Source: Ruminococcus sp.
Lineage (GTDB): Bacteria; Bacillota_I; Bacilli_A; RF39; UBA660
Direction: 5' to 3'
DNA: 47,494 nt
Assembly (NCBI GenBank): GCA_023663235.1
Contig: JAMPHW010000003.1
Span: forward strand, 97,099-144,592
Below, in pieces: positions 4,065 to 40,272 of this stretch. Position 1 is the stretch's first letter. Every line of letters starts with the position of its first letter. Below the pieces are notes generated by a model. That model made no database searches. It was not told where the DNA came from and saw only the letters and a list, made by a program, of their open reading frames with translations. The position numbers were made by a program, and so were the translations under genes.

Positions 4065-4912
4065 TCTTTTATTTCCTTTCTATTTTCTATATATTTTCCA
4101 TTTAAATTATTAGAGCTAGTAATTATATTTCTTCCAAGTTCTTTTTCTAAATTATCACGCGTATTTTTAGCAATATTACCTCCACGTTTAGCAATATCTT
4201 TATTTTCTTTTAAACCATAAGGATGATATTCTTTAGCTAATTCTCTAGTGGCAGTTTCTCCAATATCAGTAAGTAAGATTTCTAAATCTGTCATATTATC
4301 TCTTAACGACTCTTTTCTAATTCCTTTAAAATTTTTATATTCACTTGCTTTCATACCAGACCATTCTTTATATATTTCATTGGTAAGAATTCCAAATTCA
4401 TAATCTTTTTCGACTCCATTTTTCTTCCAAATATCTGTTAATTTGTTACGATTAATAATAGCTTTAATTCTGGCTTCAATCCATTTATCATCATAACCTT
4501 TATTATAGTAGTAATTTATAGCTCTTTTAATAGCAATTTCAGGGTCAAATACTTCATCAATACGTTCACTTCCTAAAGATGCTAGCCAAAGTTTAAACGG
4601 CTCAGCATTATGGCTTGGAACAGATTCTATAAGCCTTAAAATGCCCTTTGTATCCAAAACATCAGTACTGTAAAACTTGTTATCGGAAGCTTTTAATTTT
4701 AGTTGTCCGATATTTTCGGACAACTGACTTCCTTCCTTATTTAACTTAATTTTTAAATCATTCCAATACTTTCTCGGTCTTTCACTATCAGTTAATACCT
4801 TAATAACATCTATCACACTAAAATAATAGTCCCCTTTTTCACTATCCCATACACTTCTTATTTCATTTCCTTGAAATAAATTGGATATTGTTTCTAACTT
4901 ATTTTCGTTCAT
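4061..4912 (-). CDS. BRO-N domain protein (phage antirepressor-like)
   Basis: 283 residues starting MNENKLETISNLF. This ATG is preferred over an upstream one at 4966 because AAAGGAAAAG sits directly before it. The N-terminal half has Bro-N features: IRSVWDSEKGDYYFSVIDVI, then SERPRKYWNDLK and a VLDTKGILRLIESVPS stretch ending in FKLWLASLGSERIDE. The C-terminal half is a helical basic domain found in chromosomal BRO-like proteins. BRO-N domains bind DNA and are typical of phage antirepressors, but no phage genes flank this one. It has its own strong promoter and is coupled to the S66 gene. Confidence 0.75.
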   Translation of the reverse strand: MNENKLETISNLFQGNEIRSVWDSEKGDYYFSVIDVIKVLTDSERPRKYWNDLKIKLNKEGSQLSENIGQLKLKASDNKFYSTDVLDTKGILRLIESVPSHNAEPFKLWLASLGSERIDEVFDPEIAIKRAINYYYNKGYDDKWIEARIKAIINRNKLTDIWKKNGVEKDYEFGILTNEIYKEWSGMKASEYKNFKGIRKESLRDNMTDLEILLTDIGETATRELAKEYHPYGLKENKDIAKRGGNIAKNTRDNLEKELGRNIITSSNNLNGKYIENRKEIKE

Positions 4913-4964
4913 TTTCTTTTCCTTTCGTTTGATATTTTTAAAGTTTATTCCAATCTCTAATATC

Positions 4965-4993
4965 AATATACCAAACTAAAGTTCTAGTGTCAA
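4965..4993 (-). promoter_or_regulatory. Sigma-A-type promoter of the BRO-domain gene
   Basis: TTGACA at 4988-4993 and TATATT at 4965-4970 on the minus strand are separated by exactly 17 nt. The -10 lies about 50 nt upstream of the chosen ATG. Confidence 0.75.
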
Positions 4994-4999
4994 GAAAAA

Positions 5000-5036
5000 T
5001 TTTTAAAAGAAAAATAATAGGCTTTTTAGCCTATCA
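5000..5036 (-). terminator. Rho-independent terminator of the DUF362 gene
   Basis: The minus strand reads ATAGGCT, a 4-nt loop, AGCCTAT, then a T-rich run (arms 5028-5034 and 5017-5023). It lies about 10 nt after the stop codon at 5046. Confidence 0.8.
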
Positions 5037-5045
5037 TTTATCTAT

Positions 5046-5930
5046 TTAATCAATATTTATAAGTTCATATTCTCTAGTACCAAAACCTAAATTACTCGCA
5101 GCTTCAATAGTATGAACACCATGCAAAGACTCGATTCTTTCAATTAAAGTGTCCTTGCCTGGATCTTCACTGTTATAAACTAAATCTAAGCAAGCTTGAT
5201 CGATAGCAATAGGATCTAAACTTGCAAGTATGCCAATATCTTTCATACATGGAGCACTAGCATTACCATCACAATCACAGTCTTTAGAAATATTTTTCAT
5301 TACATTAATATAAACAATATTACCTTTAAAATAATCTATTATGCTTGCCGCACTATCAGCCATAGCTTCTAAAAATTTATCTTGTTCTGGGATATTATTC
5401 CATAATTCATGTTGATCCTTAGTTGCTCCAGCAGTATGAATGTAAGATTTACCTGCAGATGATGCACAACCAATAGAAAGTTGTTTTAAGGCGCCACCAT
5501 ATCCTCCCATAGCGTGGCCTTTAAAATGTGATAAAACAAGCATACTATCATAACTTGCCATATTTTTACCAACATAATTTTCTTTTATAACCTTACCATT
5601 TGGAATATCAAGTACTAAATCAGGTCCTTCAGCATCTAATAAATCAAAAGGAAAATACTTATCCCATTCATGTTCTTTAATTAACTCTTCATGTTTTTCG
5701 GTAGTATTTCTAGCTCCTTCATAGGCGGTGTTACATTCAACAACAGTACCATTTACTTTATCAACTAATGGTTTTACAAATTCTGGACGTAAATAATTTT
5801 GATTTCCTTTTTCACCTGAATGAAGTTTAACAGCTACTTTTCCTGTTAATTCTTTTCCTAACTTTTCATAAATATTAACTAGATTTTCACTAGTAATATT
5901 ACTTGTAAAATAAACTTTTGCTTTTTCCAT
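5046..5930 (-). CDS. DUF362 domain protein
   Basis: The 294-residue protein starts MEKAKVYFTSNITSENL, with GAAAGGATAAG just upstream, so the longer in-frame start at 5963 is less likely. DUF362 hallmarks are VAVKLHSGEKGN near residue 40, SHFKGHAMGGYGGALKQLSIG near residue 145 and a cysteine-containing DCDCDG..SAPCMKDIG segment near residue 225. Larger DUF362 proteins carry a 2[4Fe-4S] ferredoxin domain. Here only the core is present, although the CDCDG..C cluster could bind metal. The function is unknown. It is monocistronic, with its own promoter and terminator. Confidence 0.8.
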   Translation of the reverse strand: MEKAKVYFTSNITSENLVNIYEKLGKELTGKVAVKLHSGEKGNQNYLRPEFVKPLVDKVNGTVVECNTAYEGARNTTEKHEELIKEHEWDKYFPFDLLDAEGPDLVLDIPNGKVIKENYVGKNMASYDSMLVLSHFKGHAMGGYGGALKQLSIGCASSAGKSYIHTAGATKDQHELWNNIPEQDKFLEAMADSAASIIDYFKGNIVYINVMKNISKDCDCDGNASAPCMKDIGILASLDPIAIDQACLDLVYNSEDPGKDTLIERIESLHGVHTIEAASNLGFGTREYELINID

Positions 5931-5954
5931 AATCTTATCCTTTCTTATATTTCT

Positions 5955-5985
5955 ATTATACACTATAAATGGTATTAGAAGTCAA
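5955..5985 (-). promoter_or_regulatory. Promoter of the DUF362 gene
   Basis: Minus-strand TTGACT (5980-5985) and TATAAT (5955-5960) with 19 nt between them. The -35 sits in the same TTTTTCTTGAC context as the promoters at 4988 and 9964. Confidence 0.55.
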
Positions 5986-5989
5986 GAAA

Positions 5990-6012
5990 AAATCATCTAC
6001 TTGAGATGATTT
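5990..6012 (-). terminator. Terminator of secE-nusG
   Basis: A perfect 9-bp hairpin (5990-5998 with 6004-6012, loop ACTTG) is followed by T-rich sequence on the minus strand and touches the nusG stop codon. It separates this operon from the DUF362 promoter. Confidence 0.75.
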
Positions 6013-6545
6013 TAAGCTTTACTAACTTGATAAACTTCAACTTCTACTGGAGTTTCTTGACCAAACAAGTCAATTAAGACATTTAAACGACTATTTTCTA
6101 AATCAATATTATCAACTTTACCAAACATACCTTTAAATGGACCATCAACGATATTTACTTTATCGCCAACAGCAAGTTCAGCTTCAATATTAACACGACT
6201 CATACCCATGTTAGATAATATTTTATCAATTTCTTGAGGTAATAATGGTGTAGGTTTAGCTCCTTTACCAGAAGAACCAATAAAACCTGTAACACCTGGA
6301 GTATTACGAACAATGTACCAAGCTTCATCGCTCATAACCATTTCGACTATAACATATCCTGGAAACATTTTTTTCTTTTTTTCTTTTTTTACACCATCTT
6401 TTACTTCAACTTCAGTAGTTTCTGGAATAATAATACGATAGATATAATCTTGTAATCCCATAGATTCAACTTTAGCTTCTAGTTTTTCTTTAACTTTAGC
6501 TTCATGTCCACTATAAGTATTAACAACATACCATTCTTTTTCCAT
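6012..6545 (-). CDS. nusG: Transcription termination/antitermination factor NusG
   Basis: 177 residues, the normal length. The NGN domain starts KEWYVVNTYSGHEAKVKEKL and continues with PGYVIVEM and NTPGVTGFIG. The C-terminal KOW domain shows VGDKVNIVDGPFKGMFGKVD. NusG binds RNA polymerase, modulates pausing and couples it to NusE/S10 or Rho. A K-rich insertion (VKKEKKKKMFPGY) is within family variation. Its ATG overlaps the secE stop by one base (TAATG). The usual downstream rplK-rplA genes are not present; a terminator follows instead. Confidence 0.95.
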   Translation of the reverse strand: MEKEWYVVNTYSGHEAKVKEKLEAKVESMGLQDYIYRIIIPETTEVEVKDGVKKEKKKKMFPGYVIVEMVMSDEAWYIVRNTPGVTGFIGSSGKGAKPTPLLPQEIDKILSNMGMSRVNIEAELAVGDKVNIVDGPFKGMFGKVDNIDLENSRLNVLIDLFGQETPVEVEVYQVSKA

Positions 6546-6802
6546 TAATTAAAAGCCCCCTTGATATAAGAAATAATTAAACTCATTAATAAAAAGAATA
6601 AAACTAAAACAATTATAAAAATAATAGTTGAGAAAGTATATTTAAAAACTTCTTTTTTGCTAGGCCATTTTACTTTAGATAATTCGTTTTTAACCCCTAC
6701 AAAATAGTTTTCTTGTTTAACTTTTTTTTCTTCCTTTTTGGATTTTTTTGCTGCTTTTGTCTCTTTAACTTTTTTAGCTTCTTTAGCCTCTTTTTTTGCC
6801 AT
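6545..6802 (-). CDS. secE: Preprotein translocase subunit SecE
   Basis: 85 residues with one C-terminal transmembrane helix (about 52-76), preceded by the signature GVKNELSKVKWPSKKEVFKY that forms the amphipathic surface helix clamping SecY. The first 30 residues are an unusually Lys/Ala/Glu-rich tail, probably disordered and cytoplasmic; typical Firmicutes SecE is about 60 residues. The SD is AAGGAGAAG. It is coupled to nusG by a TAATG overlap. Confidence 0.93.
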   Translation of the reverse strand: MAKKEAKEAKKVKETKAAKKSKKEEKKVKQENYFVGVKNELSKVKWPSKKEVFKYTFSTIIFIIVLVLFFLLMSLIISYIKGAFN

Positions 6803-6883
6803 TTTAACTTCTCCTTTTTATGTATTAAAAAAAGCACTTTCGTGTTCATTTATAATCTACCACAAAAATCAGAAAAAAGCAAC

Positions 6884-7552
6884 CTATTTAATTAATTTTC
6901 TTTCACATCTACTTAAAACTAAATTGCTTTTATTATAAGCACCATCTAAATCTTGTAAAGCATATTTATGAGTTAATAAAACATCATCTAAGTGAATGTG
7001 AGAAAGACTTGGACTAGAAATTATTTGATAATTATCACCATCCATAATCGTTCCTTGTCTAAAAGTCTCAGCTTGTCTTTCATTTTTAAATAATAAACAT
7101 TTTTCAGTGGAATCTAAATCTTTATAAATAGATATTAAATGAGGCGATGTTATATAGAGTGAAGTATCAGGTATTTCAAAACCATAAGTTTTTAATAAAT
7201 AAAGCAGAAATGGTTTCCGTTGTTTTTTATTAGTATTACAAGAATAGAAATCATTATCTATACAAATATTTAACCAATAAGACATTAAAAGAGATGCAAA
7301 CCCCAGTCCACGATATGCATCTTTTACATACATACCTATATAACGACAATCTTTAGTATTAAAGTCTAAATAAAAATAAATATAACCAACACAATGCATA
7401 TCTTTATCATATATTTTAATAAAATATTGATCTAAATTTTGGCATTTAAAAAAAGATTTTTCTAAACAAATTCTATAAACATTATTTTGATAAACAATCA
7501 TATCAATTAGTAAATGTTTATCATAAGGTAAATCGCAAGTAAGCTTAAGCAT
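6884..7552 (-). CDS. GNAT-family N-acetyltransferase
   Basis: 222 residues. The acetyl-CoA pyrophosphate-binding motif A is visible as GMYVKDAYRGLGFASLLM near residues 74-91, preceded by beta strands such as CVGYIYFYLDF. The substrate is not deducible. The C-terminal 90 residues do not match a simple GNAT core and may recognise substrate. An AAAGGGG SD precedes the ATG. It lies between secE and the DUF368 gene with short spacers. Confidence 0.7.
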   Translation of the reverse strand: MLKLTCDLPYDKHLLIDMIVYQNNVYRICLEKSFFKCQNLDQYFIKIYDKDMHCVGYIYFYLDFNTKDCRYIGMYVKDAYRGLGFASLLMSYWLNICIDNDFYSCNTNKKQRKPFLLYLLKTYGFEIPDTSLYITSPHLISIYKDLDSTEKCLLFKNERQAETFRQGTIMDGDNYQIISSPSLSHIHLDDVLLTHKYALQDLDGAYNKSNLVLSRCERKLIK

Positions 7553-7600
7553 AGTAAAAACCCCTTTTCTTTAAGCTTTTATATTATATTTTATTATTTG

Positions 7601-8377
7601 TTATTTGTCAAATAGAAATCCAAGGAATCCGCCAATTATAAATATAATTAAAGATGTAATATTAAAGCCTTCTAATAGTTTTAAAAATAATATAATTAAA
7701 GAAGATAACATTAAAGCTAAAATAACACTATAGGTTTCTTCTTTTTTATTTTTAAATAAATAATTCATTATAAAACTTATAACAATAACACCAATAATAA
7801 GACCTAGAAAATAGATAATAAACATTAAATTAAAAGGATTAGCAAGAACATTTAAGACTAATTCATAACTACCTAATATCATAAATATAGCTGTTCCACT
7901 TATACCAGGAATAATAGAGGTAAAAGCATCTATAACACCTAGTAAGGATATATATAAATAGTGAATAAAAGAGTCATTAAAATAAAAGGTATTAGAATTA
8001 TTCTTAGTAAGTAATAAAAACATAATAATTATCGTTATAAAAAATAAGAAAACGTTCTTTTTAGTTATTTTTACTTTTTTTACAAATGGTAATAAAGTTC
8101 CCATAATTAAACCTAGAAATAAATACATAGTTTCATAATAATAATTAGAAAGTAAAAATAATATTAATTTACTAAAAAATATAATTGCTAAAAAGACCCC
8201 AATACCAAAATTTATTAAAAGTTTACTATTTTTTTTAACATTACTAAAAAAGTTAGTTATAGCATCAATAATATTTTCATATATTCCTAAAGTTATAGCA
8301 AGCATAGAGCCTGATATACCTGGAATTATTTTTCCTAAACCAACAACAAAACCTTTTATAATAAGTAAAAAGTCCAT
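7601..8377 (-). CDS. DUF368 membrane protein (PopT-type polyprenyl-phosphate transporter)
   Basis: 258 residues, strongly hydrophobic, with about 8 membrane segments. The family's duplicated re-entrant motif is clear: GLGKIIPGISGSMLAI near residue 14 and FTSIIPGISGTAIFMI near residue 153. DUF368 proteins (PopT), like DedA proteins, have been reported to recycle undecaprenyl phosphate across the membrane, supporting peptidoglycan and teichoic acid synthesis. That role is inferred here by family. The SD GGTGATT precedes the ATG. It lies downstream of the surface-protein gene at 8418. Confidence 0.83.
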   Translation of the reverse strand: MDFLLIIKGFVVGLGKIIPGISGSMLAITLGIYENIIDAITNFFSNVKKNSKLLINFGIGVFLAIIFFSKLILFLLSNYYYETMYLFLGLIMGTLLPFVKKVKITKKNVFLFFITIIIMFLLLTKNNSNTFYFNDSFIHYLYISLLGVIDAFTSIIPGISGTAIFMILGSYELVLNVLANPFNLMFIIYFLGLIIGVIVISFIMNYLFKNKKEETYSVILALMLSSLIILFLKLLEGFNITSLIIFIIGGFLGFLFDK

Positions 8378-8417
8378 ATAATCACCATTTAATTATATGA
8401 ACTTTAAGTATTTATTA

Positions 8418-9875
8418 TTAAACTACGACTTTTAGTGGATTAGACTGGGTTCCATCACCTGTAAACTCTACATCTGCGCGAAGATTAATTACAGGACGGA
8501 TATGACGAACAGTTTGTAAATTCCAATTTACAGCCCCATCACCAAGACAACCAGAAGCATCAATACGAAACATACGTGCTTTATTTTCAATACTTTCAAA
8601 GTTAAAGGGAGATATCGTCCAATAATTTTGATTTGTACTTAAATAATTGCTTGTTGAACTTTCTATATACGCCAATCCAGCATAACTAGCTTCATCGGCA
8701 GTTATCATTCCTACTGGCGTTGATAATTTTTTATTTCCTTTATTTGAAGTACTGTATGTATATAAATCATTATTGTTTCCACATTTAAGTGTTGGTGTCA
8801 CTGCCGTTGATGTTGGTGTTGGACTAATTCCATTTGGTCTTAATCTTACATAAGCGCCATACCCAGTATGAGTCGTTCCTGCCCCACCAGAACCATTACC
8901 TGTATTTATACCATTAACCACTATTGGGTTGGATGTTGTAGTTGGAGTTCTATCTCCACAGAAGCCGGCATTTAAATCTATTTTTTTAATATTTGGCGTA
9001 CCAACCTTAAGATTAGAATTTATAAACCAATTATCTAATGCTTTTTTTACAGTACTATCATTAATATTGTCGTGCGTCGCTTTATATGTACTAGAATTAG
9101 GCGTTCCATACATAAAGCCAACATAAGCGTTATCATCAGCTTTTTCATTAAAATCATTTATTTTTATTTGAGTTTCTTCACCTGTTATTTGTGGTTCTAA
9201 CCTATTTCCATTTTCATCTTGTGTTCTTCCTTGATAAATTATTCTTATGCTTCCATCACCATTAATTCTAATTATTCTCCAATAATAGCCACCGAATTCT
9301 ACCCAGTTATCTAAAGGGTTTCCTGCAAAATAATAACTTATTCCATCATCATCTTCAGCTTCAAATATCATGCCATATGTTGTTTCGCCATATGGGACAT
9401 TAAAATCTTTATTTTCTATTGTTCTTTTTGATTTATATTTATAGTGTGTATTTAATAGTTCAGTCATTGTTCTAGAGTTTTCAGTATTTTTGTCTAAATA
9501 TAATATACATTTAGATGACTTGCTTACACTAGTAAATACGTGTTCACCTAAAATATTTGTATACAATTTAGCATTACTATCCTTATTATTCTTATTTGTT
9601 CCTTTATAACAATAGCTTTGACTTTCATTTATTTTATAACCACTAGGTATTAAAGTATTGCTATCTTGTTCAACATTATCAAGATATAAAGCTACAATAT
9701 TTATATCATAAGGACTAGCAATAACTTTGCCTTCTGTTAAAGGAATAGATGCTGTCATTCTATAATTTGCTTTTGATGTTATAAATGTTATTGTAACCGT
9801 AAGTAATACTACCATTATTAAGCCACACAAAAAATACTTTTTGAAGCTCTTATTTCTTAATTTTTCTATTTTCAT
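8418..9875 (-). CDS. Membrane-anchored surface protein with C-type-lectin-like C-terminus (paralogue A)
   Basis: 485 residues from an ATG preceded by GGAG (the in-frame start at 9908 lacks an SD). One N-terminal transmembrane helix is followed by an extracellular region. Conserved blocks shared with the proteins at 25316 and 46466 include the chain YYFAGNPLDNWVEFGGYYWR, DGSIRIIYQG, AYVGFMYGTP, GFCGDRTP, NNDLYT, ADEASYAGLAY and IRPVINLRADVEFTGDGT. The segment between YWTISP and IRPVINLR is where the copies differ. The architecture resembles DUF6273/formylglycine-enzyme-like or C-type-lectin folds that bind ligands at a variable C-terminal face. Export and adhesion are inferred. It has its own consensus promoter. 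Confidence 0.65.
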   Translation of the reverse strand: MKIEKLRNKSFKKYFLCGLIMVVLLTVTITFITSKANYRMTASIPLTEGKVIASPYDINIVALYLDNVEQDSNTLIPSGYKINESQSYCYKGTNKNNKDSNAKLYTNILGEHVFTSVSKSSKCILYLDKNTENSRTMTELLNTHYKYKSKRTIENKDFNVPYGETTYGMIFEAEDDDGISYYFAGNPLDNWVEFGGYYWRIIRINGDGSIRIIYQGRTQDENGNRLEPQITGEETQIKINDFNEKADDNAYVGFMYGTPNSSTYKATHDNINDSTVKKALDNWFINSNLKVGTPNIKKIDLNAGFCGDRTPTTTSNPIVVNGINTGNGSGGAGTTHTGYGAYVRLRPNGISPTPTSTAVTPTLKCGNNNDLYTYSTSNKGNKKLSTPVGMITADEASYAGLAYIESSTSNYLSTNQNYWTISPFNFESIENKARMFRIDASGCLGDGAVNWNLQTVRHIRPVINLRADVEFTGDGTQSNPLKVVV

Positions 9876-28291: not shown

Positions 28292-28326
28292 TTAAAAAGA
28301 AAGCTTATCCTAGGCTTTCTTTGTTA
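28292..28326 (-). terminator. Terminator of ileS
   Basis: AAAGAAAGC and GCTTTCTTT pair around a 9-nt loop over the ileS stop codon and are followed by T-rich sequence on the minus strand. Confidence 0.7.
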
Positions 28327-31300
28327 TTATATTAGCTGTATGTCCATTTAAATCGACTTCATTATTTATATTTTCATCATAAATAAATTCTGTAGCTAAA
28401 GTTTCACTAGCAACATATTCATTAAATTCTTTAACAGTATTTTTAACTAACTCATCACCATTATAAGTAATAATTATTCTATCACTTACATTATAATCTT
28501 CATTTTTACGAATATTTTGAACTTTAGAAACAAATTCACGAGCGATACCTTCTAAGATTAATTCTTCAGTTAAAGTTGTATTTAGAATAATAAAATCATT
28601 ATTTTCCATACCTACATTAAAGCCTTCTTTTTCAGATATCCTAATGTCAACCATTTCTTTAGTTATAGTAAACTCTTCATCTTGGATAGTTAATTTTATT
28701 GTTTCATCATTATTTAGCTTATTAATCTCACTAGGGTTTAATTTCTCAAGTAACCTGGCAAATTCTTTAACTTTAGGTCCCATTGTTTTACCTACTACTT
28801 TAAAGTTTGGTTTTAGAGTAAAATTCATGTATTCATTTAAATCTTTAACAAATTTTATTTCTTTAACATTTAATTCTTCTTTAATTAATGGAGTTAAATC
28901 ACCTATTAAGGATTCGTTTTTACCATCGATTAAAGCTTCACTTAATGGTTGTCTTACCTTTATTTTATTTTCTTCTCTAACGAAACGTCCTATACTTATT
29001 AAATTTCTTACTAAATCCATTTTATTTTCAATTGTTTCATTTATAAGCGATTCATTACATTTTGGATAGTCTGATAAATGAACAGATTTTTCACCAGTTA
29101 GATTACGATACATTTCTTCACTAATAAATGGTGTTATTGGAGCGATTAATTTAGATAGACCAACAAGTACTTCATAAGTTGTAATATAAACACTTTTTTT
29201 AGAGTTATCAAGAACACTTCCCCAGAAGCGATTACGATTACGTCTAATATACCAATTAGATAAATCCTCTGAAACAAAGGCAGTTAAAAGTCTTACTACT
29301 TTATTTAAATCATATTCATCAAAGGCCTCAGTTACATTTTTAATTAAACGATTATACTTAGATAATAACCATTTATCTATTTCTTCTCTATTTTCATATG
29401 TAACATTACATAAATCAGTATCAATATTATCTACATTAGCATACATAACGAAGAAATTATAAGTATTACGAAGTGGATTAAAGAATTTAGAATAGACTTC
29501 TTTTAAACCTTCAATATCAAATTTTAGTGGTGTCCATACTGGAGAAACATAAGGAAGATAAAATCTTACAGTGTCAGCACCATATTCTTTTATGGTAGTA
29601 AATGGTTCAACAATATTTCCTCTACTTTTAGACATTTTTTTGCCTTCGGCATCTAATAATAAATCATTTACTAAAACATTTTTAAATGGACTACAACCTT
29701 TAACAAAAGTTGAAATAACCATTAAAGTGTAGAACCAACCTCTAGTTTGATCGATTCCTTCACAAATAAAGTCTGCTGGAAATTGGGTCTCCCATAATTC
29801 TTTATTTTCAAATGGATAATGATATTGTGCAAAAGGCATAGCTCCACTATCAAACCAACAATCTAAAACATCTGGAATACGAGTCATGCTACCATTACAT
29901 TTAGGACATTTTAAATGAATATTATCAATATAAGGTTTATGTAAATCAAAGTCATCATTTATTTCTTCTATAGCCATTTCTTTTAATTCAGCAATAGAAC
30001 CTACCATATGATTATGTCCACATTCACATTTCCAGAAAGGTATTGGACTACCCCAATAACGACTACGAGAAACATTCCAATCTTTAGCATTACTTATCCA
30101 ATTAGCAAATCTTTTTTCACCAACATAAGCAGGATACCAATTAACACTAGCATTGGCTTCGACCATTTTATCACGATACTCGCTTACCTTTATATAATAG
30201 CTAGGCATAGAGTAATAAATAAGTGGTGTATGACATCTCCAACAATGAGGATAATCATGAACTATTTTTTGTTTTCTAAAGACTTTTCCTTGTGATTTTA
30301 AATATTCAGCGACTTCTTCATTAACGTCATGGACAAATCTACCCTTCCAAGGGCCTTCAGTATAACAGCCATCTTTACCAACAGGATTAATAAGAGGAAT
30401 ATCATAATTTTTACAAACATTTGCATCATCTTCACCAAAAGCAGGTGCTATATGGACAATACCTGTTCCATCTTCCATTGTTACATATTCATCGCAAGTA
30501 ACAAAGAAAGCTTTTTTATCTACACTTATTTCTGGTATTAATTGTTCATATTCTTGATATTCGAGAGTCTTTCCCTTAAACGTATCTAAAACTTCTACAT
30601 CTTCACCTAAAACGGTTTTAACCAAAGCTTCAGCCACAATAAATTTATTACCCTTAGATAAAGCTAAACAATAATTTTCATTAGGATTAACACATAAAGC
30701 AACATTAGCAAGTAAAGTCCATGGGGTTGTAGTCCAAGCTAAGAAATAAACATCCTCATCCTTTTTCTTGAATGGTACATAAAGCGTTAAAGCTTGATCA
30801 GCCACATATTCTTGAGCTACTTCATGAGTTGCAAGACCCGTTCCGCAATGAGGACAATATGGAACTACTCTAGTTCCTTCATAAAATAAATTTTCTTCGA
30901 AATATTTTTTAAGTATCCACCATTCAGTTTCGATATATTCATTTTTATAAGTTAAATAAGGATTTTCAACATCAATAAATTGTCCCATTTTACTAGTTAA
31001 ATCCGTAAAAGCAGCTTCATTTTCTCTAACACTTTTACGACACTCTTCATTGAATTTATCAATCCCTAATTCTTCAATTTCTTTTTTGGAAGATATACCT
31101 AGTTTTTTTTCAACATGATTTTCAACAGGTAATCCATGAGTATCCCAACCTACTTTACGGATAACTTTATATCCTTGCATAACTTTATACTTACATATAG
31201 CATCTTTAAGATTTTTAGCTACCATATGATGAAGTCCTGGGAAACCATTAGCAAATGCTGGACCGTCATAAAAAACAAAATATTCATCATCTTTTCTATT

Positions 31301-31405
31301 TTCTATTTGGTCTTTATTTATTTTATTGATACCACCCCAAGATTTTAAAATATCCTCTTCTACTAAGCTTATTTCTCTTTTATCCAAACTTTTAAAATTT
31401 TTCAT
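28310..31405 (-). CDS. ileS: Isoleucyl-tRNA synthetase, IleRS2 type with altered HIGH motif
   Basis: 1031 residues from the ATG preceded by AGAAGGAG; the longer frame runs back into the T-box terminator. It is a class I synthetase charging tRNA-Ile. VIRKVGWDTHGLPVENHVEK and the 1030-residue length match the eukaryote-like IleRS2 group, known for mupirocin resistance, rather than Bacillus IleRS1. The HIGH motif reads G57-L58-H59-H60 (NGFPGLHHMVAKN), with first and third positions exchanged. KMSKS is intact (GKKMSKSRGNIVEP). An editing domain, a zinc-like CPHCGTG and CPKCNG are present. It is controlled by the T-box at 31424-31598. Confidence 0.95.
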   Translation of the reverse strand: MKNFKSLDKREISLVEEDILKSWGGINKINKDQIENRKDDEYFVFYDGPAFANGFPGLHHMVAKNLKDAICKYKVMQGYKVIRKVGWDTHGLPVENHVEKKLGISSKKEIEELGIDKFNEECRKSVRENEAAFTDLTSKMGQFIDVENPYLTYKNEYIETEWWILKKYFEENLFYEGTRVVPYCPHCGTGLATHEVAQEYVADQALTLYVPFKKKDEDVYFLAWTTTPWTLLANVALCVNPNENYCLALSKGNKFIVAEALVKTVLGEDVEVLDTFKGKTLEYQEYEQLIPEISVDKKAFFVTCDEYVTMEDGTGIVHIAPAFGEDDANVCKNYDIPLINPVGKDGCYTEGPWKGRFVHDVNEEVAEYLKSQGKVFRKQKIVHDYPHCWRCHTPLIYYSMPSYYIKVSEYRDKMVEANASVNWYPAYVGEKRFANWISNAKDWNVSRSRYWGSPIPFWKCECGHNHMVGSIAELKEMAIEEINDDFDLHKPYIDNIHLKCPKCNGSMTRIPDVLDCWFDSGAMPFAQYHYPFENKELWETQFPADFICEGIDQTRGWFYTLMVISTFVKGCSPFKNVLVNDLLLDAEGKKMSKSRGNIVEPFTTIKEYGADTVRFYLPYVSPVWTPLKFDIEGLKEVYSKFFNPLRNTYNFFVMYANVDNIDTDLCNVTYENREEIDKWLLSKYNRLIKNVTEAFDEYDLNKVVRLLTAFVSEDLSNWYIRRNRNRFWGSVLDNSKKSVYITTYEVLVGLSKLIAPITPFISEEMYRNLTGEKSVHLSDYPKCNESLINETIENKMDLVRNLISIGRFVREENKIKVRQPLSEALIDGKNESLIGDLTPLIKEELNVKEIKFVKDLNEYMNFTLKPNFKVVGKTMGPKVKEFARLLEKLNPSEINKLNNDETIKLTIQDEEFTITKEMVDIRISEKEGFNVGMENNDFIILNTTLTEELILEGIAREFVSKVQNIRKNEDYNVSDRIIITYNGDELVKNTVKEFNEYVASETLATEFIYDENINNEVDLNGHTANIITKKA

Positions 31406-31423
31406 AAATTCTCCTTCTAAATA

Positions 31424-31598
31424 TAAAAAAGGTGTATACCAAAGGGCGAAATATCGCGGTACCACCTTATTTTTTAACTTTTACTTTTAACGCAAGTTAC
31501 ACGTAATATCCTAAATATCAGATATTAAACTCCCAAGTGATTTCTTAAAAGATTTTAATTAACTTTCACCAAACGTTAACTCTCTATATAAAATTACT
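31424..31598 (-). promoter_or_regulatory. T-box riboswitch leader of ileS (Ile specifier ATC)
   Basis: The minus strand holds the invariant AAGGTGGTACCGCG of the antiterminator, followed by a terminator in which AAGGTGGTACC pairs with GGTATACACCTT before a T run (31424-31467). Upstream, GGTGAAAG and TTGGGAGT are stem I features. An ATC triplet at 31521-31523, followed by TGA, fits the isoleucine specifier. Uncharged tRNA-Ile would favour antitermination. Confidence 0.93.
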
Positions 31599-31599
31599 T

Positions 31600-31869
31600 T
31601 TAAGCGTCTTGTTCTTCGTCTATGTTCTCACTAATAAATTTTGTTGTAAATAATGATGTTAAAGCTTCGATTAGTTTTTCATCAGTTACTTTTTCAACAG
31701 ATAATTCATTATCAATTTCTATTTTTTTTAAGAAAATAAATTCTTTAGTAGGTAAATCATCTTTATCAAGTCCTACACAATATAAGTATGTATCTTTACT
31801 TAATTCTGTCATATCTAATATTAGATATTCAACATCATTATCTAAAGTTAAAACATCATTAATTTTCAT
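31600..31869 (-). CDS. Small acidic protein, DUF1292-like
   Basis: 89 residues, acidic, no membrane segment. MKINDVLTLDNDVEYLILDM and FIFLKKIEIDNELSVEKVTD suggest a small beta-rich fold like DUF1292 proteins, followed by a helix. The similarity is loose. The SD is AAAGAGG. It starts 25 nt downstream of the 1276-residue repeat protein and is probably its operon partner. It ends just before the ileS T-box. Confidence 0.6.
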   Translation of the reverse strand: MKINDVLTLDNDVEYLILDMTELSKDTYLYCVGLDKDDLPTKEFIFLKKIEIDNELSVEKVTDEKLIEALTSLFTTKFISENIDEEQDA

Positions 31870-31894: not shown

Positions 31895-34800
31895 TTATAA
31901 TGCAAAGCCTTTATTTTTATTTTCAAACATATCTAAAATATCACGTTTAGACTGGCTATCAGCTTCTAACTTTTTGACTTCTTCTTCTGAAAGTGTACCA
32001 GCATCTATTTTAGCTTGATTTTCTTCAATTTGAGCTTTAATGTTAGCTATTAAAGCTTGCTCAGCTTCAGTAAGTTCTTGACTTTGTTCTTCAATAAAGC
32101 TTGTTCCACTACCCATCATTTTAGCTATCTCTTCTGGCGACATAGGAGGTTGGGCTTGTTGAACTGGAGACTGTAATTCTTTATCTGCTTCTTTTCCTAA
32201 AACCTCACGAGGCCCTGAACCATTATAAGGACCAATTATTCCTCTTGCTTCTAACATATCCATTAAGCGTGCTGCTTTAGAATATCCTAATTTAAATTGT
32301 CTTTGAATAACTGATACAGTAACATTATCTAATCCTTTAACAAAAGATTCAACCTCAGGATATAATTCTTCATCATCTTTTTGATAATATTTTGTTTTAT
32401 CTGGGTCTTCTTCAGGTTTTACTTCATGAGGCGGTAAAGCTGGAATCTCATGGTCACCACCTAAGTTTTCTAATATTTCACCTGTATTAATTTCAGGAGC
32501 TTGAGCAGCAGGTTGGGCTGGCGCTTGAGCGCCAACAACATTCGCTACTGCTGGATTATTTTTGGCCTCTGCGGTTATATCATTTACTCTTTGTTGAACA
32601 CGTGCTTGAGCATCAGCTTCTATTTGTTTAGCTACATTACCAGATATTTCTTCAACTATACTATCAACTTTTCCTAAAGATTTTTCAATGTTTTCTATAC
32701 CCCTAACTAACCCTATATAAGTGTCTTTTAAGGAATGAGCTATTAATACACCTTCTACTTCTTCTAAATCTTTTGCTGTTAAGGAATATTTCAAAACATT
32801 TCTCATTGTTTCTAAATTTATTTTCAATTGTTGATTTTCTGGAATAGTTAAATCTTGTTTTTCTACTTTAGCAAGTTTAGCTTCAATTTCAGCAATTTTG
32901 GCTTCATTAGCTGATAAGTCAATTTCGTTATTTTTCTCTAACTCTTCACCAAGTTCTTCTAATTCTTCGTCTTTATCTCTGCCTTTAAATTTACCCTTTA
33001 TTTTATCAAGTAAATCTCCTAATTTGTCAGTTATTTTCTTCTTATTATCAGGATTTAAATCAGGTAAACGTTCTTCATCTTCACTTTTTAAATATTTTTT
33101 AATAAAATAAGCATCAAGTCCTACAATACCAGCGCCTGCTAAAGCAAATGCTAAATGTTTTAAGCTTCTAGATATCATGAAGTTGCCACTTAGTAATTGA
33201 CCTGCGTTAGTGAATACTGCTCCATTAACCATATTTGCAAAGCCAGCATTACATAAATTATTAACTATTCCTGTCATAGCTGGAGCAAGAGCTGTATTAT
33301 GCGCTGCGATATAACTGCAAGCATAGATAATAGGTTGACCTAATAAAGCAGCACCAACACCAATAGCTAAAATTGTTAATCCTATTGCAGCTACTGTCTT
33401 TTTATTATTTTTCCACCATTCTTTAGCAGCTTCTTTTAATCCACGAATTTTTATCTTACTTCTTAAGGCTTTAGCCTTATCTTTAAAGCTTGCTTTTTTT
33501 GGTTTATCTAATTCTTTTAGTACTTTAGTAGCATTGCGATAGTTTTCTTCGTCATTTCTATCTATTTTAACGCCATCAACTTCAACTAAATCGTTTGATT
33601 TTTCAGCATTATTCAAAATATCCTTTATTGTTGTTAAAGCTTTTTGTTTGTCAACCTTTTTGCTATCAGACATATCAGCACTTTTAAGAGTATCTAATTC
33701 TTTTTCTACCTCAGCTAATTTAATCTCATTTTTGCTCTTTTCAGGATGGTCAGGTGCTTTTTCAAGTGATGCTAATTTTTCAATTAACTCTTTATAGGCT
33801 TGTTCATCATCTTTAGCAACTTTTATGCCATCAACATCAACTAAATCAGTTGATTTTTCAGCATTTAATAAAATACCTTTTAATTTATTTAACACTTCTA
33901 ATTTTTCTTTATCTTCTTCTTTTGAAGCATCTAAACTTCTAATTTTATTATCAACTTCTTGAAGTTTTAATTTATTAGGTGTTTTATTTTTTCTTATATC
34001 TTCTAATTTGCCATTAATATTTCGATAATATCCAGCATATTCAGAAGCTATTTTGGCTCCATCATTAATTTCTTCTAATTTAACAGAATCTTTTGATGCT
34101 TCTAGATATTTAAGTTTACTAATTAATAAATTGTACTCTTCTTCATCTTCTAGTAATACAGTTTTATTATCCGCTAAAATAGGATTAGGAGTATTTTTTG
34201 CTCTTTCATTTAAAGCTATTAATTCTTTTTTTATCTGTTCAATTATTTTGTCATTCTCTGCTATTTTAGGAGCTTTTTCACTATATTTTTTAGTACTATT
34301 AATTAATTTTTTATATTCTGTAATTTCATTATCAATATCACTTAAATAACCTAATCCCCAAACATTAACTAAATCAGAGCGATTATTAGCAAGATTATTG
34401 TTCATCTTTAAGTAAATAATCATTTGACATACTGCTTCATATTCATCAAAATCGTCAGCTAAAACAATAGTGTCTCTAGATGTTTTTCTAGAAGGAATAT
34501 TAGTATATGATTTATAATCAATGAAATTTTTTTCTAATTCAACTAAATATTCTTCTAATTCTTTAATCATTTTATCGTTAAATTCACGAGCTTTAGTATC
34601 TGGATCATTAGCTTTTAAAACTTCATCTTGACGCATTAATTTTTTTAAATCAGCTATATCTGTTGGTAAAACATGAGCAATACCCCAAACGCTCTCTAGT
34701 TCTTTATCGCTAGCATCCGCTCTATTTAAAATCTTTAACATCTCAATTAAATTTAAATATCTATCTTTATTAACTCTTTTAACTATAACACCATTAGGCA

Positions 34801-35725
34801 TTTCTTCATAAGCTTTATTAAGTAATTTTGGTTCAGCTAAACTTGCCATTTCTTTTTTTATGTCTTCAATTAACTTAGTATTAATGCCTTTAGGTTGTAA
34901 GTATTTAAAGTTATCAATCTTTCCAAGCAAAGAATTAGCTTTGTCTTTTTCGGATACATTAACACATAATATATCATTAACTAAAACAATTTCTGTACTA
35001 TCTTTTACATTAGATAGCATTTCTTTTAAATCGACTAAACTATTATAAGCTTCTTCATGTTCAGGTAAAATAGAGTATCCATCTTTACTAAAAGTTGGTG
35101 TATTTTTAGGGTGTTTAGTAAATTCTTCTCTTAATCTTGCCATTTCTTTATCAAGAGTTTCTATAAATTTAGCATTTATTTCATTTTTAATATTAACAAG
35201 AGTTTTAGTAACGATTTCTCTATTCTCAGCATAATCAGCGATACTAGCATTTATTTCATCAAAACGAGTTTTCCAAACAGAATATTCCATAGATGATAAT
35301 CTTGATTGTAAATCAGCAGCTTGTTTAGAAATTTTTTCATAATTTCGACTAATATTATCTAAGCCTGCTTTAACTCTTTTGAATCTTTCAGTTAAAGGTA
35401 GAATTTCTTCTGCTAAACTAAATGCATTAGCAAGTAAATCTTCTTCAATTACTCGACTATCTTCATCTAATATTTCATTTACTTCAATTTTTAAAATATC
35501 ATAAACATTAGTTAAATAATTATCTTGAGAACCTTCAAGTTCAATAATATTATTCTCTTTCTTATAGTCTTGATAAAATAGATAAGCTAGAGACTTAAAC
35601 TCTTCTGATCTACCTTTTCTTACCTTTATATTTGTATTAGGAATTATTTCGATATCAGTATCGTTAATATTTTGAGCTTCTCTTAATATTTCTATTAATT
35701 GAGCTTTGTAAGTATTGATATCCAT
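31895..35725 (-). CDS. Giant repeat/coiled-coil membrane protein with C-terminal FtsK-gamma winged helix
   Basis: 1276 residues from an ATG after AAAGGAGG. Residues about 1-760 hold coiled-coil helices alternating with repeat units such as VLVNDILCVN, SVWGIAHVLPTDIADLKKLM, NVWGLGYLSDIDNEI, LVDVDGIKVAKDDEQAYKEL and LVEVDGVKIDRNDEENY. Two hydrophobic segments lie near 775-795 and 855-875. After an acidic and a Pro/Ala-rich stretch, residues about 1110-1178 read ELYPEVESFVKG, VIQRQFKLGYSKAARLMDML and ARGIIGPYNGSGPREVL, the FtsK/SpoIIIE gamma DNA-reading domain. No Walker motor is present. It is a paralogue of the protein at 35834 and has its own promoter. The role is unknown; linking DNA to the membrane is inference. 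Confidence 0.75.
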   Translation of the reverse strand: MDINTYKAQLIEILREAQNINDTDIEIIPNTNIKVRKGRSEEFKSLAYLFYQDYKKENNIIELEGSQDNYLTNVYDILKIEVNEILDEDSRVIEEDLLANAFSLAEEILPLTERFKRVKAGLDNISRNYEKISKQAADLQSRLSSMEYSVWKTRFDEINASIADYAENREIVTKTLVNIKNEINAKFIETLDKEMARLREEFTKHPKNTPTFSKDGYSILPEHEEAYNSLVDLKEMLSNVKDSTEIVLVNDILCVNVSEKDKANSLLGKIDNFKYLQPKGINTKLIEDIKKEMASLAEPKLLNKAYEEMPNGVIVKRVNKDRYLNLIEMLKILNRADASDKELESVWGIAHVLPTDIADLKKLMRQDEVLKANDPDTKAREFNDKMIKELEEYLVELEKNFIDYKSYTNIPSRKTSRDTIVLADDFDEYEAVCQMIIYLKMNNNLANNRSDLVNVWGLGYLSDIDNEITEYKKLINSTKKYSEKAPKIAENDKIIEQIKKELIALNERAKNTPNPILADNKTVLLEDEEEYNLLISKLKYLEASKDSVKLEEINDGAKIASEYAGYYRNINGKLEDIRKNKTPNKLKLQEVDNKIRSLDASKEEDKEKLEVLNKLKGILLNAEKSTDLVDVDGIKVAKDDEQAYKELIEKLASLEKAPDHPEKSKNEIKLAEVEKELDTLKSADMSDSKKVDKQKALTTIKDILNNAEKSNDLVEVDGVKIDRNDEENYRNATKVLKELDKPKKASFKDKAKALRSKIKIRGLKEAAKEWWKNNKKTVAAIGLTILAIGVGAALLGQPIIYACSYIAAHNTALAPAMTGIVNNLCNAGFANMVNGAVFTNAGQLLSGNFMISRSLKHLAFALAGAGIVGLDAYFIKKYLKSEDEERLPDLNPDNKKKITDKLGDLLDKIKGKFKGRDKDEELEELGEELEKNNEIDLSANEAKIAEIEAKLAKVEKQDLTIPENQQLKINLETMRNVLKYSLTAKDLEEVEGVLIAHSLKDTYIGLVRGIENIEKSLGKVDSIVEEISGNVAKQIEADAQARVQQRVNDITAEAKNNPAVANVVGAQAPAQPAAQAPEINTGEILENLGGDHEIPALPPHEVKPEEDPDKTKYYQKDDEELYPEVESFVKGLDNVTVSVIQRQFKLGYSKAARLMDMLEARGIIGPYNGSGPREVLGKEADKELQSPVQQAQPPMSPEEIAKMMGSGTSFIEEQSQELTEAEQALIANIKAQIEENQAKIDAGTLSEEEVKKLEADSQSKRDILDMFENKNKGFAL

Positions 35726-35775
35726 ATATATTCCTCCTTTCACATCTTTTAAAACACCAAGTTAAACCTTTAATT

Positions 35776-35833: not shown

Positions 35834-38638
35834 TTATTTAAATAATCTTACAGTACTATCAGATATGATACTAGCACTATCCACTAAAGTTTCAATATCA
35901 CTCATAGCTCTTTTAATTTCAGGTGCTTGACGAGTGTCTGCAAGAAATTTATTTAGATTTTTAATAACATAATTCATTTGTTGAACTAATTCTTCAGGCT
36001 CTAGCGACATTAAATTTCCAACATCTTCTCTGGCAATATTTAAATCTTTATATTTATTTAAATCTAGACTTGTAAGTTTCATAAATGAATCACGATATTC
36101 CTGAGCTTTAGCTATATCTTGACGTTCTTTAGCTCTTTCAAACAACTTAATTTGAGCTAAAGCTTGTTTTTCTCTTAAGTCATTAATAGAACCATTTAAA
36201 ACATTAATCTTGGCATATTCAGAAATAAATAACTCTTGGGAATGTTCTGTTATATAAACTTTAATTTCTTTAATTTCACGATTAGCAATATCTATAGCAT
36301 CTTCATTTCGAGCGATAATAGTTTCACTATCAGGCATATGATTTTCTTTTTCGTGTTTAATATCTAAATTATTCATTTCAATTTCTTGTTCTAATTGTTC
36401 TATTCTTTTATATTCAAATCCAAAACGTTTTTTGGTTCCTTCATTAATATAAGTTACTAATTCTCGAAGTCTTTTATTTGCTTCATTAATTAATGCTTCA
36501 CCCTTCATAATGCCTTGTATTAAAACAGCATCATAATCATCTAAATAAAGTTCTGGATGATTAAGGGCATCGGGAAGGCCTGTCGCATCTACATCTTGAA
36601 TATTAACAGTATAATAATGACCATTAAGCTTATTATTTCTTGTATCTTCATCGCCTAAAGCCATTTTACATCTATCGACAATATTATCGACAATTTTAAT
36701 TAAGCGTGATACATAAGGATTAGTTCCTAGACGTTCTTCTTCCTCATCAACTAGACTTACGGCGATTAAACTTTTTAAAAATATTTTAGCATTTTTGAAA
36801 CTGTGCCACTTTCTAGATCCTTTTACCCGAGAAGTAATTTGAGCTGATGGCAAAGCTTCTTGAACAAGCACTTGACTATCTTCGCTTTTTACAATCCCAA
36901 CTGGACCTCTTGAATTAGCAAGTAAAGTTTGAACTTCTGTTAAAAGACTATCTAGTTCACTATGTCTTCCTTCGGTTAAAGTATCTAAGATTTGACTTAC
37001 AGCTCTATTCATATTTTCTTCAGATGCTAAGGCTTGGTTATCCTTTAATACATCCATAAAATAGCTATTTATTTCTTCTTGGGTCTTCGGATAGGCATTA
37101 AGGGCTCTGTTGGGCGTGGGTAAGGCAGGTAATTCTGCTTTACTCCCTCCTTTTCCTATAATTTTCTTTAAAGCTTCATCTAAAGCATCCGCTCTTGTTT
37201 CTTCACTTTGATTTAATGCTGCTTTTAAAATAGCTTCAACATCATATATTGGCTTATCACTTTTAGGAGTGCCAGTTACAGCGGGTATCCCAAATAATTC
37301 TAGCATTTTAGATTGCTCTAAAGTATTAGCATTTCTTTGGCTTAGTAAGTTAGCTTGCAAAGTTTCTAAAGCTTGTCTTTTTAAATCAGTTTCATTTAAA
37401 GACTCTTCTTTAAGTGCTAATGCTTCTTTTTTGCTCATCTTTATTTCATTAAGTTTAGCGGTACTTCTTTCGTATTCTTTTATATATCTTAAAGGAACAT
37501 AAACACCATCAGAAGCGACATCTTTTTTAGCTTTATCAGTTTCGATACCTCTTCTTAAAATATTATATCTACTCATTAAAGCTTCTTTTTCTTCTTTGGT
37601 TGTATTTTCATCTATGTTTCTTAAATCTTCAACAAGACTATTTAAAGCATTTCTATTACTATCTTCCATTGGAACTTTATCTCTTAGATAACTAGTTCTT
37701 AGGATTAAGTCTTTAAATTTCGTAACATCTTTATAGGGAACGTAACCAATATTCCATACTCTTGTTAATTTTTTATTTTGAACACTTAATAAACCAAGCA
37801 TTTCTCTTACAGCTTGTTCTTCATAATCTGGAGCTGTTTCTAAGTAAGCAGTAAGATCACTTACTAAATCAGCATTAATTAATCTACTATCATAGTTTTC
37901 ATGATAAAATTTAGTATTAGCGATAGCTTCTATAAAAGCATCTTTTATTTTTCTTGGAATAAAGGCAATATTTAAAACTTTTTCAACAACATCTTCTTCT
38001 TTTATATTTAAAAAAGTTAAGACATCACACAATCTATCATAATCGTTAACATAATCTTTAGCTATTTCTTTACCATTTTTAGCTTTATAAGTATATTTAT
38101 GTTGTTCACCTTCGATACCTCTTAAATATTTTTCTATTCTAGTTTTTAATTCATTATTAAAGGCAACATGACTTTCGTAAGGTGATACTTGTTCATTTAA
38201 AGCTTCAGGGTCTTTTAACTCTGGCATATCTAATGTTTCGATAGTTTCTTCTTTTGGTCTTAAACTAGCAAATAACGCTCTAGCCTCTTCTTCTTTACTA
38301 GCATTAACGCAAATAGTATCATCAATTATAACTAATCTTTCTCTATCTGTAGTAGCATTTTTTATTTCTAATAATCTTCTAATTGTTTTATATGTCTCAG
38401 TAGAAGATGCTTGTTCCATAGCTTTTTCAACAAATCTTAAAAAGTTGGTATCAGCTTCACTTTTGAATTTTCCGATAGCTTTTAGAGTATTGTGTCTTCT
38501 ATCTACTAAATCACTAACTAATTCCACAGTAAAACTCGCAACATCATCTAAGTTTGCTATACGGTTTCTAAATTCAATATTTAAAGCATCTAAATTATTA
38601 TAAAGTTGAACTAATCTATCGTTTAAAGGTTTACTCAT
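35834..38638 (-). CDS. Large coiled-coil repeat protein, paralogue of 31895-35725
   Basis: 934 residues, cytoplasmic by appearance, with no membrane segment or enzyme motif that I recognise. It shares repeat units with the downstream giant protein: LVIIDDTICVNASKEEEARA (near residue 98), VLNIAFIPRKIKDAF, RVWNIGYVPYKDVTKFKDLI (near 290) and VASDGVYVPLRYIKEYERS (near 375). A compact region near 600-690 and a long coiled coil near 730-870 follow. The gene uses GGGGG as SD and has a near-consensus promoter. It sits 108 nt upstream of the FtsK-gamma gene, which also has its own promoter, so the two are adjacent but separately expressible. The function is unknown. Confidence 0.7.
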   Translation of the reverse strand: MSKPLNDRLVQLYNNLDALNIEFRNRIANLDDVASFTVELVSDLVDRRHNTLKAIGKFKSEADTNFLRFVEKAMEQASSTETYKTIRRLLEIKNATTDRERLVIIDDTICVNASKEEEARALFASLRPKEETIETLDMPELKDPEALNEQVSPYESHVAFNNELKTRIEKYLRGIEGEQHKYTYKAKNGKEIAKDYVNDYDRLCDVLTFLNIKEEDVVEKVLNIAFIPRKIKDAFIEAIANTKFYHENYDSRLINADLVSDLTAYLETAPDYEEQAVREMLGLLSVQNKKLTRVWNIGYVPYKDVTKFKDLILRTSYLRDKVPMEDSNRNALNSLVEDLRNIDENTTKEEKEALMSRYNILRRGIETDKAKKDVASDGVYVPLRYIKEYERSTAKLNEIKMSKKEALALKEESLNETDLKRQALETLQANLLSQRNANTLEQSKMLELFGIPAVTGTPKSDKPIYDVEAILKAALNQSEETRADALDEALKKIIGKGGSKAELPALPTPNRALNAYPKTQEEINSYFMDVLKDNQALASEENMNRAVSQILDTLTEGRHSELDSLLTEVQTLLANSRGPVGIVKSEDSQVLVQEALPSAQITSRVKGSRKWHSFKNAKIFLKSLIAVSLVDEEEERLGTNPYVSRLIKIVDNIVDRCKMALGDEDTRNNKLNGHYYTVNIQDVDATGLPDALNHPELYLDDYDAVLIQGIMKGEALINEANKRLRELVTYINEGTKKRFGFEYKRIEQLEQEIEMNNLDIKHEKENHMPDSETIIARNEDAIDIANREIKEIKVYITEHSQELFISEYAKINVLNGSINDLREKQALAQIKLFERAKERQDIAKAQEYRDSFMKLTSLDLNKYKDLNIAREDVGNLMSLEPEELVQQMNYVIKNLNKFLADTRQAPEIKRAMSDIETLVDSASIISDSTVRLFK

Positions 38639-38916: not shown

Positions 38917-40272
38917 ATGAACCCAAGTATTTTTAGAGAATATGATATAAGAGGTACTTATCCAAGCACAATTAACGAAACAGTAGCTTATACTATAGGC
39001 AAAAGTTATGGTAGTTATTTAAGAGAAAAACTCAACCAAACAACTTGCATTGTGTCTCATGATAATCGCGTTTCTAGCCCTGCTATAGCTGCATATCTTA
39101 CAAAAGGAATAACTGATAGTGGTCTAAACGTTTATAATTATGGGATGACTACCACGCCAATGCATTATTATGCGAGATATATTCACAATTTATTTGGTAT
39201 TATGGTTACAGCTAGTCATAATCCTAAAGATGATAATGGTTTTAAATTTTCTTTTGATAATTTAGCTAATGCTAGAGGTTCGATGATTGAAGACTTTAAA
39301 AACTATACACTTGCAGGTAAATATTTAGATGGTAATGGTACTGTATCAAGCGGTAATATAACGGATAAATATGTAGAATTTTTAAAATATGGTGTAGAAT
39401 TTGGTAGAAGAAAAAGAAAAGTTGTTATTGATGTTGGTAATGGTACAACTTCGATTGTTGCTAGAAGAGTATTTGAAAGTGTAAATGTCGATTTTGAAAT
39501 TATTTATGAAGAAAGCGATGGTAGATTTCCTAATCATCATCCTGATCCTAGTGTTGAAGCTAATTTAGAAGCTTTAAAAAAAGAAGTAATAAATAAAAAA
39601 GCAGATCTTGGAATTGCCTTTGATGGTGATGGTGATCGTTTAGGTATAGTTGATGAAAAAGGTAATGTTGTTCCAAATGACCATTTTATGATTTTAATTA
39701 TTAGAAATATTATAAATACCGCTAAAAATAAAACATTCTTATATGATGTAAAATGTACTAAGGCTTTAGAAGACGAAATTAAAAGATTAGGTGGAACACC
39801 AGTATGTTACAGAACAGGAGCAAGTTACACCCAAGCTAAAGTTAAAGAAGATAATATGCCTTTTGGTGGAGAATATTCTGGACACTTCTTTTTTAGAGAT
39901 AAAATTGCAGATGTCGGAAGCGGAATATATGCAGGTCTTAGATTGATTGAGATTTTAAGTAAAACTAATGAACCTTTAAGTAAATTACTTGCGGACATTC
40001 CAAAATATTATAGTACGCCAGAAATTAAGTTTCCAAGTCCTGATGAGAAAAAATTTGAAGTAATGAAAGGAATTAAAGATTTTTGCGAAAGTCAAAGTTG
40101 GGTAATTAATGCGATTGATGGAATTAGAGTTAATTTTAAAACAGGTTGGGCTTTAGTTCGAGCAAGTAATACGGGACCAAATATCACGATGCGATGTGAG
40201 GCAACAACCGAAGATGGTTTAAAAAACTTACAGACAATTTTTACTAATTTAATTAATACTTATAATAAATAA
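38917..40272 (+). CDS. Phosphomannomutase/phosphoglucomutase
   Basis: 451 residues, typical for the alpha-D-phosphohexomutase family. The phosphoserine loop is TASHNPKDDNGFK (Ser100), the magnesium loop FDGDGDRLG (236-241), the sugar-binding loop GGEYSGHFFF and the phosphate-binding loop RASNTGPNITMRCEA. It interconverts hexose 1- and 6-phosphates and feeds nucleotide-sugar synthesis for envelope glycans. The choice between mannose and glucose cannot be made from motifs; the GEYSGH loop and overall length favour the PMM/PGM subgroup. A GAGGGA SD precedes the ATG. It is monocistronic, with a terminator following. Confidence 0.9.
   Translation: MNPSIFREYDIRGTYPSTINETVAYTIGKSYGSYLREKLNQTTCIVSHDNRVSSPAIAAYLTKGITDSGLNVYNYGMTTTPMHYYARYIHNLFGIMVTASHNPKDDNGFKFSFDNLANARGSMIEDFKNYTLAGKYLDGNGTVSSGNITDKYVEFLKYGVEFGRRKRKVVIDVGNGTTSIVARRVFESVNVDFEIIYEESDGRFPNHHPDPSVEANLEALKKEVINKKADLGIAFDGDGDRLGIVDEKGNVVPNDHFMILIIRNIINTAKNKTFLYDVKCTKALEDEIKRLGGTPVCYRTGASYTQAKVKEDNMPFGGEYSGHFFFRDKIADVGSGIYAGLRLIEILSKTNEPLSKLLADIPKYYSTPEIKFPSPDEKKFEVMKGIKDFCESQSWVINAIDGIRVNFKTGWALVRASNTGPNITMRCEATTEDGLKNLQTIFTNLINTYNK

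Follow-up and report, generated by a model that had tools for sequence, protein, structure and literature searches.

Within the 47,494-nucleotide stretch of DNA analysed here (the window), a reverse-strand gene (31895–35725) encodes a 1276-residue protein, counted from its ATG, that combines repeat units, a coiled coil and a predicted membrane anchor with an embedded FtsK gamma domain and that contains no FtsK motor. The explanation we hold most plausible, with somewhat less than an even chance of being correct, is that this protein ties either oriented sites on the chromosome or Xer complexes to the membrane and does not translocate DNA. The narrower proposal, in which a motor-free tether reads polar chromosome motifs and motif reading is thereby separated from DNA pumping, is possible but on the unlikely side.

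Identification of the Gamma Domain and Absence of a Motor

The preliminary description of this DNA had placed a gamma winged-helix signature at residues ~1110–1178, and profile searches bear this out. A Pfam scan of the protein matches PF09397 over residues 1123–1182, numbered from an upstream GTG (1117–1176 from the ATG; 32198–32377, reverse strand), with 73.4 bits and an E value of 1.2e-20, well above the curated cut-off of 30.6 bits, while a profile search of the whole genome gives 79 bits at the same site. A profile built from other gamma domains scores the protein at 85 bits, and because gamma-less members of its own family reach at most 0.8 bits with that profile, the match lies far beyond chance. 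Searching PDB sequences with the domain returns FtsK gamma structures only, with relatives at E 2e-11. A single-sequence AlphaFold model of the domain (mean pLDDT 68) has the expected three helices, with the wing unresolved, and its top 14 PDB matches in Foldseek are all FtsK gamma domains, at weak E values of ~0.03–0.15. From this model and a column comparison with 60 other gammas, the recognition helix can be assigned to SKAARLMDMLEAR, residues 1155–1167 (32243–32281, reverse strand).

That the protein lacks an FtsK motor, as had also been proposed, holds up equally well. Pfam finds no match in it to PF01580 (the FtsK_SpoIIIE motor) or to the FtsK N-terminal membrane domain, and neither the protein nor its neighbour contains a Walker A motif. 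No frameshifted motor lies beside the gene, whose neighbours are a 934-residue paralogue, a DUF1292-like gene, ileS with its T-box, and pgm. The whole-genome search locates a single further gamma domain, which closes a 759-residue frame on a separate contig; this frame is a normal FtsK, complete with a motor that includes the Walker A sequence GSTGSGKS. A broken or frameshifted FtsK is thereby ruled out, since the intact FtsK is encoded on a different contig and the gene has no piece of a motor beside it.

The open reading frame runs without interruption from 31895 to 35743 (reverse strand), and starting at the GTG at 35743 would give a protein of 1282 residues. The ATG at 35725 is the likely start, because a ribosome-binding site, AAAGGAGG, can be read directly upstream of it at 35740–35733 on the same strand. 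Although the genome is a draft in 53 contigs, it is extremely improbable that misassembly has joined the end of an FtsK to another gene: the gene is one open frame within a 154-kb contig, the gamma domain is flanked by a family N-terminal part on one side and a family-like tail on the other, and its identity to the genome's own FtsK gamma is only 52%.

Architecture and Predicted Topology

The repeats, coiled coil and two hydrophobic segments noted earlier are all borne out. In an AlphaFold model of the first 614 residues (12 sequences, mean pLDDT 80), a small N-terminal part leads into a predicted long coiled-coil hairpin (35117–35527, reverse strand) and then into helices alternating with short beta hairpins. 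A unit profile defines six divergent repeats of ~60 residues each, predicted to be cytosolic (33503–35074, reverse strand) and showing the beta-hairpin/helix pattern in the model; the profile made from these six units also matches most relatives, and a candidate seventh repeat after the membrane hairpin scores 6.6 bits, under the best shuffle, and is not counted. For the N-terminal fold Foldseek gives no convincing match, VIA-align gives matches mostly over the coiled-coil region and at a level usual for helical models, and a profile of this part finds weak matches only among PDB sequences, at E 0.01 or worse.

Hydropathy places the two hydrophobic segments at about residues 784–808 (33320–33394, reverse strand) and 856–880 (33104–33178, reverse strand), and a segment resembling the first is present in most relatives. 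Basic residues border both, with KALRSKIKIRGLKEAAKEWWKNNKK before them and FIKKYLK and NKKKITDK after, and for this reason both ends of the protein should be cytosolic. From hydropathy and charge, the two segments are predicted to form a membrane hairpin, with both arms, gamma domain included, in the cytosol.

In the C-terminal arm the gamma domain lies between linkers rich in Pro, Ala and Gln and is followed by a helical tail (31955–32098, reverse strand) that weakly resembles the tails of gamma-less relatives. A profile of eight relatives' tails matches it weakly, with 22.4 bits for the isolated tail and 18.8 bits in the full protein (the best of 500 shuffles reaches 13.8 bits). This weak resemblance of the sequence beyond the gamma domain suggests that the domain was inserted within the arm and not fused at its end.

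A Genus-Specific Family in a Conserved Slot

Relatives of the protein occur in nearly all of 36 genomes of the genus, taken to be ‘Candidatus Caccenecus’; a few gave a match to the FtsK gamma only. In the regions fetched, the family occupies a conserved slot, in which a divergently oriented pgm is followed by the family protein, in most cases by a DUF1292-like gene encoding 80–98 residues, and by ileS. The locus in the window has this same gene order. The divergent neighbour is a pgm-type phosphomutase by Pfam (38917–40272, forward strand), conserved genus-wide; the small gene (31600–31869, reverse strand) falls just under the Pfam cut-off for DUF1292 and is likewise conserved throughout the genus. 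Beyond it stands a T-box leader (31439–31625, reverse strand; Rfam RF00230, 103 bits) and then the gene at 28310–31465 (reverse strand), which from its sequence, its T-box and its conserved position in relatives we take to be ileS.

Between pgm and the gamma-bearing gene lies a tandem gene that is paralogous to the N-terminal repeats, encodes 934 residues (35834–38638, reverse strand; BLAST E 2e-7) and has neither a membrane segment nor a gamma domain. Elsewhere in the genus this paralogue yields only short matches, over the repeat region, to the relatives' main slot protein.

The slot protein evolves fast, with about 25–36% identity to its relatives as against ~80–85% for pgm and 63–85% for ileS, and the N-terminal repeat part of the gamma-bearing protein is 28–36% identical to most relatives, at E values down to 3e-86. 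Lengths range from 389 to 1713 residues, and several of the shortest members lack both the DUF1292-like gene and strong membrane segments. Variation within the family is greatest in the C-terminal arm; the 1713-residue member (locus L063 of genome G011, 3616–8757, reverse strand) has a long C-terminal extension with no Pfam match of note. A search of 193 genomes from the order finds no family member outside the genus. The slot between pgm and ileS is occupied, in one sister genus, by a 288-residue protein with a hydrophobic segment (locus L166, 8966–9832, reverse strand), whose similarity to the Caccenecus family is below detection.

The studied protein shares its position, its repeats and its membrane hairpin with this family, and differs in the gamma domain, which none of the 24 other scanned members possesses; across all 25 full-length members scanned it alone matches PF09397, and no other known domain of note appears in the relatives' C-terminal arm. 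At the level of whole genomes, a second gamma domain occurs in one of the 36, the one studied here. These comparisons would make the host protein a genus-specific membrane-anchored scaffold and the gamma domain an addition in a single species.

So restricted a distribution, together with the hypervariability of the arm in which the domain sits, would fit the capture there of a functionally neutral domain. We nonetheless regard this as quite unlikely: the domain has diverged by ~50% from every FtsK gamma compared and yet preserves its core and its DNA-contact residues, which points to constraint more than to a neutral capture in the recent past.

Contact Residues and the Choice of Ligand

The residues retained were identified by aligning the protein to 60 other gamma domains and to the E. 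coli numbering. Q1147, R1148, G1153, Y1154, A1157, A1158, R1159, E1165, G1168 and R1179 are all kept, and most of the invariant gamma positions are intact; drift is greatest in the first helix and the turn behind it. Recognition of KOPS by E. coli FtsK draws on R1300, E1303 and E1306 (PMC2680272). Their counterparts here are R1159, D1162 and E1165, the one substitution being conservative and Asp at that position being usual in the FtsKs of Bacilli as well.

The same surface of gamma contacts both XerD and KOPS DNA in E. coli, where R1289 makes the strongest XerD contact, a critical salt bridge (PMC5052618). This arginine is kept as R1148, while R1292 is replaced by K1151 and N1296 by S1155, at a position that is Asn in 54 of the 60 gammas compared. 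The lysine found in the wing of Bacilli gammas is replaced by Gly. Because of these last two changes, N1296 to Ser and wing lysine to Gly, specificity may have changed.

With KOPS DNA and XerD using one surface of gamma, either could be the ligand. It is conceivable that the domain serves mainly as a protein dock, holding XerD (or FtsK) rather than DNA at the membrane and so modulating dimer resolution. The shared surface, the retained R1289 and the Lys at R1292 are all compatible with such a role, as is the presence in the genome of two Xer-type recombinases, whose best scores are to XerD and XerC, both below the curated equivalog cut-offs. The Ser at N1296, a residue that hydrogen-bonds to XerD, fits it less well, and a pure dock would have no need of the KOPS-specific R1300 and E1306, which are also kept. 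Docking of this sort is a serious alternative, albeit one that we consider unlikely.

It is also doubtful, in our estimation, that what was captured is a generic winged helix, now recognizing some other, non-polar DNA site or regulating transcription as part of a membrane-anchored regulator. Fusions of gamma to unrelated proteins occur elsewhere, and both the long branch of this one and the changes to its recognition-helix and wing residues would accord with a new specificity; the intact state of most invariant gamma positions, however, speaks against it.

Origin of the Domain

At 52% identity to the gamma of the genome's own FtsK, the domain stands at a distance similar to that between SpoIIIE and SftA, a pair with 55% identity whose motifs are believed to be similar (PMC4744071). 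The same figure gives no support to recent copying from the FtsK of this species, whose gamma is no closer than those of FtsKs from other families. Among phage and plasmid sequences considered as donors, the best matches fall below 60% identity and none is close. A gamma tree built on 65 columns gives the domain a long branch and places no donor.

A Proposed Motor-Free Membrane Tether

The tether that we favor would be built on a scaffold whose extensive repeats and coiled coil lie in the cytosol, ahead of a membrane hairpin, and whose C-terminal arm is cytosolic as well; in one species an FtsK-type gamma flanked by flexible linkers would have been added within that arm. The gamma probably still binds short polar motifs related to those of the cell's own FtsK, XerD, or both, and would thereby retain at the membrane either Xer complexes or oriented sites of the chromosome. 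Having no motor, the protein would be unable to pump DNA, but it could hold, mark or compete. In FtsK one KOPS is bound by three gamma domains (PMC5052618), and a tether reading such a motif would therefore need to form oligomers.

Judged from sequence, such a tether agrees with the topology predicted and with the key residues that have been kept. In its favor we count the PF09397 match of 73–79 bits, the genus-wide syntenic family, and the intact FtsK and two Xer-type recombinases encoded in the genome; against it stand the occurrence of the gamma in one genome only, its long branch, the oligomers that it would call for, and the substitutions at N1296 and the wing lysine. Should KOPS-like motifs still be read, cells could position oriented regions of the chromosome at the membrane with no translocase involved, and the protein would offer a natural test of the role of gamma apart from the motor. 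It also indicates that gamma can pass between proteins as a reader module, in cellular genes and not in phage genes only.

Relation to Known Gamma Proteins

The protein resembles FtsK and SpoIIIE in its gamma winged helix, in most of the DNA- and XerD-contact residues, in its membrane anchoring and in the linkers around the domain. It differs from them in that no FtsK_SpoIIIE motor, alpha domain or FtsK membrane domain is found; its hydrophobic segments, near residues 784 and 856, are not N-terminal as the FtsK membrane domain is, and its gamma is internal, with ~100 further residues on the C-terminal side.

The combination had at first been taken to be new, and this is true in part. Phages are documented to encode gamma domains that come with no motor, both in small terminases and as single gamma genes (PMC8190038). 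The small terminases of Bacillus phages Sam46 and Sam112 resemble the present case in having gamma fused to a protein without a translocase motor, but they function in DNA packaging, their gamma is N-terminal, and a membrane part is not reported (PMC8190038). Our searches added further gamma domains on non-motor proteins, namely an RdgC with C-terminal gamma from Pseudomonas phage PA8 (locus L189, 1463–2683, forward strand) and a 256-residue FtsK_gamma–Mrr_cat fusion from a relative in the same class (genome G332, locus L181, 1270–2040, reverse strand), possibly a gamma-guided nuclease; in these the partner is RdgC or an Mrr nuclease domain and not a repeat scaffold. Motor-free gamma fusions were therefore already known, and what is new is the architecture, in which a cellular, membrane-anchored scaffold of a single species bears gamma and has no recognised enzyme domain, a version we have not found elsewhere. 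No other long motor-free gamma protein emerged from the phylum sample, where nine of nine long-frame candidates have a Walker A motif.

A Paenibacillus plasmid protein (locus L193, 404–4474, forward strand) unites a topoisomerase, FtsK_gamma and the FtsK motor in one chain and, because of that motor, is no precedent. A further motor-free case is a Mycobacterium phage product annotated as a sliding clamp, which has a C-terminal gamma (locus L190, 664–1737, forward strand), and a 246-residue protein (genome G303, locus L180, 1562–2302, forward strand) matches FtsK_gamma with 48 bits, the rest of its length having no assigned function.
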